A stretch of DNA of 51,818 bases, from the IMG/VR virus record IMGVR_UViG_3300009537_004348, positions 1-51,818 of that record. One strand, given 5' to 3'. Below, piece by piece: positions 48,957 through 50,429 of the stretch. The stretch is from a virus. The notes beneath the pieces are model-generated. The model did not search any database. It saw only the letters and a program-made list of their open reading frames with translations, and was not told the DNA's origin. The translations under genes were made by a program, and so were the position numbers. Position 1 is the first letter of the stretch, and each line of letters starts with the position of its first letter.

Positions 48957-50429
48957 TTATTGTACCAGTCTTACAGCCTTTGCATCAAACTGCTCTCTAG
49001 TTGGTAGAGGGATGTTCATAATCTCCTCAAGCAAGTCTAGACGGCCAGGCTTGTTCAAGAGAGGAATTAGGTTTGGAATTGAGTAGTAGTCGGAACCCTG
49101 TGGAACCTTGATGGACTCATACTCAATCTGCTTTTGGTCACACTGACGCTCTAGCTGGTTGCTGGCGTAACGTCCACAGTTGATAAACACAACTCGTGGA
49201 TAGGTACCAAACTTGTTCTTAAACCTATCCATTTCCTGAATGAAGTATGGTGCGCGGTTTTCACCTTGGTCAGTAATCATTATGATTTGCTCAACGAACT
49301 GATCGTTGTTAATCATCTGATGTAGACCTGCACCACATGAAGTAGCGCTGCCTGCACGAATCATGCGCATAGCCTTTTCCCAGTCCTGTAGCTTGTCGCT
49401 ACGAACATTTATTGGAACCGCTACAACATCGAAAGCCCAGCAGTAGAAATCGCTCTCTACAATGGTTGAAATCATAGAACCGATGCCCTTACCCAACTCG
49501 ATTGCGTCAGTCATTGAAGACGACTTGTCAATCAACAACGCAGTGCTACGAGTAATCCTGCCCCTGCTCTTCAACTGAGAGTCAGAAACATCGGTAAGAA
49601 CATCCGCTATATCGGCATCAACGCCCGCAGTCTGTGCAGCCTTTTGAGCCTTTAGAGCGTCAACCTTTGTGGACTTCTTCAACTTCTTTAGCCTGGTTTC
49701 AATCAGTGCCTTAAGGTCCTTATTGTTCATGACACCACGCTTCTGCAATGAGCCCAAGTTAACCAAGATTTCCTGGTCGGTCATCTGGTTAATCAATGCT
49801 GCCAAAACAGATGGGGTCATGTTAGACACAGCGCCAACCGCAGTAGTATAAGGGATGTTGTATTCAACAATCAACTTAGCCTGCTCAGTTGGGTCTTCGG
49901 TTGCTGACAAGAGCCTAATTTGATTCAACTTGGAATCAGCTGGAGGATTGTCATCAAACAAGATTGCCTGTGCCCTATCATTTGGCGCAATCTTAAATGA
50001 AGCATACAAGCCAGTGAGAGGCTTTCTATTTCGCGATGCCGCTACTCCATCTAAACGAGCTGGATGATTCTCGAAACCCCTTAGATAAGTCCTGACTGCA
50101 GACTTCATTATACGAGGTGGGTTACGCTTAAAAACACGCTTAACGTGGTTCTTAATACGCTCTACCTGGTAAGGCGGAAAGCTCTGCAACAGGACATATC
50201 CAGCTTCACGATGCTCTGGAAACTCACTCAATAGCAACTGTGCCACAAACATTTCTTTGTGGTCACGGACATCGGTGTTTGCCTGTGCCCAGACAGCCAA
50301 ATGCCCATAAAACAAAGGATCTTGCTCTACCATGCCCTTGTGGGTGTCAGCAACACGCTTAACATCACGGTGAGTAGACTCCAAAAGTGAGTTCAATATC
50401 TTTAGCCTTATGTCCTGTTCGGTGTTCAT
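48957..50429 (-). CDS. Ro60/TROVE-like RNA-binding protein with VWA domain
   Basis: The 490-aa protein has a helical-repeat N-terminal two-thirds with a TROVE-like stretch near 210-250 ([20 protein letters not shown]). A von Willebrand A domain follows with a MIDAS motif DKSSSM at 301-306, a matching Thr near 363 and an ITDQGE segment with D387. Ro60 proteins form a ring that binds misfolded RNA and Y RNA and work with exonucleases. No Y RNA is evident beside it. It starts behind TAAGGAGAATATT and ends at a terminator. Confidence 0.78.

Follow-up and report, generated by a model that had tools for sequence, protein, structure and literature searches.

Among the systems closest to the locus described here are the Ro60 and Rsr proteins that occur with Y RNAs such as YrlA, including those of the rsr-yrlBA-rtcBA operons and the Ro proteins of phages. 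It has long been asked what Ro60 and Y RNA naturally do, and why bacterial Y RNAs contain a tRNA-like module. For the tRNA-like portion of YrlA, a role as competitive inhibitor (a tRNA-mimic decoy) of an anticodon nuclease has been proposed (PMC7790460), and the Ro proteins already known in jumbo phages have been described as platforms for RNA repair (PMC7824862). Ubiquitin-like (Ubl) cassettes are known from bacteria (PMC1779556), and systems of this kind include Bil, Bub, type II CBASS (Cap2/Cap3) and the E1/E2/JAB/Ubl operons of Iyer et al. 2006. The inducible tRNA array of cyanobacteria, described as the trn operon of Anabaena and part of the TrcR regulon, is a translational-stress operon that is induced by such stress and repressed by TrcR (PMC10272220).

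The Ro60-like gene studied here lies in the window, by which we mean the whole 51.8-kb stretch of DNA that was analysed. The window carries genes for phage terminase, phage DNA polymerase, SbcCD, UvsX-like and FtsK-like proteins, the first four of which mark it as a phage fragment. An earlier note on this DNA had placed the Ro60-like gene in a phage with tmRNA and IF-3, and both were located; the E1, E2, UBL (ubiquitin-like protein) and JAB neighbours, missing from that note, alter the picture of the gene. The features concerned are given below, together with their state in the sister phage L003, a 62.8-kb record.

About 15784-16041, minus strand: IF-3 (E 4e-26)
40722-41133, minus strand: tmRNA, about 8 kb downstream of the Ro60-like gene; order the same in L003
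45848-46438, minus strand: ClpP-like protease, after E1 (CLP_protease E 4e-49); gene order the same in L003
46448-47083, minus strand: E1/ThiF-type activating enzyme, 211 aa (ThiF E 8.5e-35, motifs)
47080-47688, minus strand: JAB/JAMM protease, 202 aa, HTHPSGMNQMSQID (Prok-JAB and desampylase matches, JAMM motif)
47697-48647, minus strand: E2-like protein, 316 aa (alignment, predicted model)
48644-48883, minus strand: 79-aa protein between the Ro60-like and E2-like genes, with a homologue in L003 only
48957-50429, minus strand: Ro60-like protein, 490 aa (structure and fold search, conservation)
50440-50688, minus strand: s82, an 82-aa protein in the position held by the UBL gene in related phages
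50688-51818, minus strand: NifS-like cysteine desulfurase at the contig end, adjoining s82 (Aminotran_5 E 9e-79)

According to PHROGs, the relatives of the ClpP-like protease are head maturation protease. Near the tmRNA, positions 41837-42259 encode a PTH2-like peptidyl-tRNA hydrolase (E 1.5e-4, narrowly missing the Pfam cut-off), and the 73 nt that separate the Ro60-like gene from the gene that follows (48884-48956) contain a terminator-like hairpin.

The Ro60-like open reading frame is intact, starts with ATG and is taken as a real gene because its protein is kept in relatives, at 68% identity in the nearest and about 40-50% in other phage and bacterial ones. Sequence models fail to detect this family. 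The window protein has no TROVE or VWA match in Pfam, NCBIfam or PHROGs; the Pfam TROVE profile (PF05731) matches none of nine phage records, the window's among them, at E 0.1; and vWA_Ro60 is touched by only one of 50 relatives, at E 0.006. For the Ro60-like, E2-like and UBL proteins, nothing informative came from Pfam, NCBIfam, PHROGs or PADLOC, except for weak VWA matches in some relatives. Because the TROVE profile finds no match, the family is named Ro60-like by fold and regarded as diverged. A profile built from the 50 relatives leads to two solved TROVE proteins (E 6e-4).

The structure predicted with the 50 relatives (pLDDT 85, pTM 0.76) comprises 19 helices over residues 7-289, followed by a VWA domain at about 294-463. 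Its top Foldseek matches are all Ro60/TROVE structures, among them 9kop (E 5e-11), Ro60 in the 9nfa complex (1e-10), Rsr of D. radiodurans (1e-10) and Ro60 of Thermus phage phiLo (9l5y, 1e-9). VIA-align places the model on Ro60 with RNA (1yvp) over 435 residues at Z 22.5 and rmsd 3.8, whereas the best VWA-only chain reaches Z 15.6. Predicted structure and fold searches thus bear out the TROVE-like helical ring of the earlier note, and in the comparison with Rsr and Ro60 these proteins rank first, ahead of VWA-only chains. The MIDAS, described there as complete, is so: D301, S303, S305, T363 and D387 are invariant in the alignment of relatives, and DxSxS is present in all 50 rows. The predicted model therefore confirms a full-length Ro60 fold, with a helical TROVE-type ring and a VWA domain with intact MIDAS.

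A homologue with 44% identity is present in LR756511, a 595-kb uncultured phage; its row was left out of the Ro60-like and E2-like alignments used for structure prediction. Scans of viral and genome contigs with a single Ro60-like protein sequence returned no relatives. Querying with a two-sequence alignment (window and LR756511) yielded seven IMG/VR contigs and 193 bacterial stretches; 80 of the latter were retained, almost all cyanobacterial, with one from Acidobacteria, one from Armatimonadetes and one unclassified record. In the unrooted Ro60-like tree, the nine virus rows lie together on one side of a branch (support 100/97) and are much more diverse than the cellular rows, and the window groups with L003 (100/100). 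Several observations concern individual records. Two cyanobacteria carry tandem Ro60-like gene pairs (L013, 7597-9036 and 9995-11434; L065, 7222-8658 and 10001-11434). A conserved 241-aa protein without family match is encoded upstream of the Ro60-like gene in 43 cyanobacterial loci (for example L086, 8634-9359), and a second family, of 153 aa, occurs in 25 loci. The phage contig L004 has two group I introns (3941-4139 and 4944-5131) and a sub-threshold RNase P RNA-like match at 18677-18872 (49 bits).

The Ro60-like gene belongs to a conserved cassette, kept in eight other phage records and many cyanobacteria, that contains genes for UBL, Ro60-like, E2-like and E1/ThiF proteins and, in phages, JAB. 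The UBL gene lies upstream of the Ro60-like gene, and the E2-like and E1/ThiF genes (in phages also JAB) lie downstream in the same orientation; no JAB was seen adjoining the cyanobacterial cassettes. An E2-like gene is found downstream in 44 of the 61 loci having at least 9 kb of downstream flank, and in 23 of the 24 genomes behind selected Ro60-like loci. The putative UBL of cyanobacteria is about 66-70 aa long, and the UBL terminates exactly in Gly in 69 of 70 relatives (PEAVYG, PEAVFG), the one exception running four residues past the Gly. Seven of the nine phage records have a UBL gene. The two without it are the window and L003, with no recognisable UBL in the window or anywhere in the L003 record. 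A reading of s82, 60% identical to its L003 counterpart, as a diverged UBL was not supported: hhalign to the UBL profile gave a probability of 4.6%, and L003 does not share the terminal Gly.

Three further proteins of the cassette are encoded in the window. The E2-like protein is 37% identical to its LR756511 homologue, and Cys254, in AGICLSG, is invariant in a 35-row alignment. Its model (pLDDT 81) has two OB-like barrels followed by a helix, four strands, Cys254 and a helix, so that the C-terminal domain has the predicted order of elements found in UBC enzymes. The fold search with this model was weak (an RWD match at Z 5.1, with no E2 among the chains listed), and a PDB sequence search with the protein found no E2; since neither gave a significant E2 match, we infer E2 identity and activity from topology, motif and invariant Cys. 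The JAB protein matches Prok-JAB at E 2e-4, which fails the Pfam cut-off, and an NCBIfam desampylase model at E 2.5e-6; the JAMM motif HxHx7SxxD is present in seven of eight phage JAB copies, the window's included. The E1 has the motifs GAGALGSN, DMDRVEDKNIATQ and DVCDYPLA, and all three motifs tested are present in 40 of 52 copies.

In makeup this cassette resembles the bacterial Ubl systems, with which it has in common an E1, an E2-like protein with conserved Cys, a JAMM protease and, in relatives of the window, a small putative UBL with C-terminal Gly (PMC1779556). It differs in having a Ro60-like protein and Y-type RNAs, which are absent from the description in PMC1779556, in the N-terminal OB-like barrels of its E2-like protein, for which there is no Pfam model, and in its standalone E1. 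The partners also set it apart from the Ro60/Rsr-YrlA systems, being Ubl enzymes here and RtcB/RtcA or PNPase there.

The same genes could be read as a sulfur-transfer pathway, in which NifS, E1 and UBL act as a thiocarboxylate carrier (as in ThiS/MoaD/Urm1) that thiolates tRNA or tRNA-like RNAs presented by the ring. NifS abuts s82 in the window and is found in the equivalent place in L003, ThiF is the model type closest to the E1, and tRNA-like RNAs are present; but NifS beside the cassette is seen in these two records only, no thiouridylase was recognised, and the invariant Cys of the E2-like protein and the JAMM protease suit conjugation better. We consider sulfur transfer quite improbable.

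Noncoding RNAs adjoin the cassette. Rfam YrlA gives weak matches beside it in several phages, none of which reaches the curated threshold of 69 (RF02553; best 37.1 bits), and the model also gives sub-cut-off matches in 13 of 14 control genomes. The YrlA matches alone were therefore not taken as proof, and a specific covariance model and covariation were used instead. The covariance model R1, of the relatives' RNA, matches eight of the nine phage records, most strongly beside the Ro60-like gene or the cassette. The covariance-model search for a Y RNA that the earlier note proposed was thus positive in relatives and negative in the window, where R1, run without filters, had no match with E under 1.2. 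L003 has four RNAs (1386-2027), which lie some 6.4 kb upstream of its NifS gene. The window contig stops at the NifS start, so its RNAs are predicted to lie off the contig, probably beyond its end where L003 has them.

In most loci the interval from the UBL gene to the Ro60-like gene holds tRNA-like genes called by ARAGORN, and a Y-type RNA lies there in 61 of 70. The flanks of these RNAs pair to form a common base, ..TCG.GCCCYAAC..AAAAAGCTTACAWAC [module] CAGCTTT..AACTTG..CGA... In the tRNA-like class, RNAalifold finds 27 pairs, 21 of them with double (compensatory) changes; 95% of cells pair against 74% in shuffles, and none of 500 shuffles is as good by any measure. Sliding the partners drops the pairing to 37-49%. 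The short class, which has no tRNA module, has 14 pairs, 11 with double changes. By pattern search, the cassette strand carries 167 such RNAs and the opposite strand none. Their lengths fall into classes of about 80, 130, 150-195 and 212 nt. The class of about 150 nt contains permuted tRNA-like folds, as in YrlA, and the 212-nt class, located mostly between the Ro60-like and E2-like genes, holds a fold of the 23S rRNA GTPase centre, with a 56-position match to LSU rRNA (E 2e-13). The RNAs share one covarying two-helix base, which bears as its module a plain hairpin, a tRNA-like fold, a permuted tRNA or a mimic of the 23S GTPase centre. With a paired stem of the 5' and 3' ends, an internal bulge and a variable inner module, the relatives' RNAs have the hallmark of Y RNA and are putative Ro60 ligands. 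As a separate observation, the loci contain 24 GTPase-centre motif matches (for example L030, 12791-13003; L010, 15178-15260 and 2523-2578; L087, 6202-6257); those between the Ro60-like and E2-like genes lie within Y-type RNAs, and others lie in the tRNA-array region.

Many of these RNAs are called tRNA by ARAGORN and real tRNA arrays adjoin them, so they might be taken for ordinary array tRNAs, as precursors with paired ends, in a tRNA array with passenger genes. This is very unlikely, and we reject it: the acceptor strand is fixed whatever the anticodon (TACATAC in cyanobacteria, AAACA in phages), the anticodons vary and include stop anticodons, and the same base recurs on RNAs that have a permuted tRNA, an rRNA module or no tRNA module. 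The comparison with Ro60/Rsr and YrlA is closer. Common to both are the full-length fold, a noncoding RNA beside the gene, tRNA-like and permuted tRNA-like modules, and carriage by phages, which was known before; in contrast, the family described here is undetected by Pfam TROVE, and its RNAs fall under the YrlA threshold and are of several module types, including the 23S GTPase-centre mimic.

The association extends to whole genomes. Among 146 cyanobacterial genomes, the Ro60-like profile matches 13 and the E2-like profile matches the identical 13, a strict co-occurrence with a probability of 8e-19 under independence, although the genomes are related and the 13 are thus not independent. UBL and the RNA model are each found in 11 of these 13, and the remaining 133 genomes have neither. 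In at least four of the co-occurrence genomes the Ro60-like and E2-like genes are on different contigs, and their co-presence is therefore not mere linkage. These data bear on a simpler explanation, that of an ordinary phage Ro60 ribonucleoprotein carrying out RNA quality control, as Rsr/YrlA does with PNPase, with the Ubl genes forming a separate system that shares the locus. The full Ro60 fold, the adjoining Y-type RNA and the precedent of jumbo-phage Ro proteins (PMC7824862) and of the phiLo structure would all agree with it. We nevertheless judge it unlikely, as linkage of the cassette persists across deeply diverged phages and cyanobacteria, and the presence of the E2-like gene together with the Ro60-like gene even when unlinked argues against a chance neighbourhood.

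The surroundings of the cassette point to translation. tRNA arrays of 10 to 33 tRNA genes occur in sixteen loci, L7/L12 paralogues lie near the Ro60-like gene in 25 cyanobacterial loci (for example L089, 8933-9334), and EF-Ts paralogues do so in nine, L003 and L021 (12602-13207) among them. Short tmRNA-like matches (84 nt, E about 1e-13, sub-threshold) were also observed in the cassette region of L030 (7585-7668) and L035 (7235-7318). Long tRNA arrays, filamentous cyanobacteria and a translation-stress context are shared with the Anabaena trn operon (PMC10272220); as differences, some loci here have no array, and no mention of Ro60, TROVE or ubiquitin was found in the paper searched. A putative role in RNA quality control or in tRNA and rRNA turnover, as suggested in the earlier note, would be consistent with the RNA modules (tRNA-like, permuted tRNA, 23S GTPase centre) and the adjoining arrays.

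The best explanation, which we consider more likely than not, is that the Ro60-like protein forms the core of a Ro60/Y-RNA particle whose function is coupled to that of a Ubl conjugation system and tied to translation stress. What lies past the association of RNAs and genes, including the conjugation step and its target, we infer as follows. The Ro60-like ring would bind the common base of the Y-type RNAs, leaving an exposed module that could draw in proteins recognising tRNA or the factor-binding site of the ribosome. E1 and the E2-like protein would then conjugate UBL to whichever protein has been captured, or to Ro60 or the particle itself, and JAB would take UBL off again or trim it. The VWA MIDAS might hold UBL, purely by analogy with MDN1-MIDAS/NLE1-UBL; the VWA matches of the Ro60-like model in Foldseek include 8ql1. 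In phages, beside tRNA arrays, tmRNA and IF-3, the system may keep translation running against host defences that attack tRNA or ribosomes; in cyanobacteria, it may be part of the inducible tRNA-array response to translational stress.

A more specific form of this coupling, which we advance tentatively and at less than even odds, is an RNA-guided Ubl ligase, in which the Ro60-type ring displays Y RNAs as bait that chooses proteins for UBL conjugation. Each Y RNA could, on the same tentative footing, carry as its bait an imitation of tRNA or of the ribosome's GTPase centre, and such a ligase might conceivably serve as a translation-protection or counter-defence system common to huge phages and cyanobacteria. 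In the literature searched, we found no account of Ro60 joined to a Ubl cassette or of Y RNAs with a GTPase-centre module, and for either an earlier mention may exist.

In bacteria and phages, this locus connects a Ro60-type protein with enzymes of the ubiquitin-like kind. Its Y-type RNAs form an extensive natural set in which the modules are interchangeable (tRNA, permuted tRNA and 23S GTPase centre), and from this set one can read off directly what each kind of module imitates. Two questions thereby become testable in cultured cyanobacteria: which partners the modules of Y RNAs recruit, and whether substrates of a Ubl system can be selected by a Ro60 particle.
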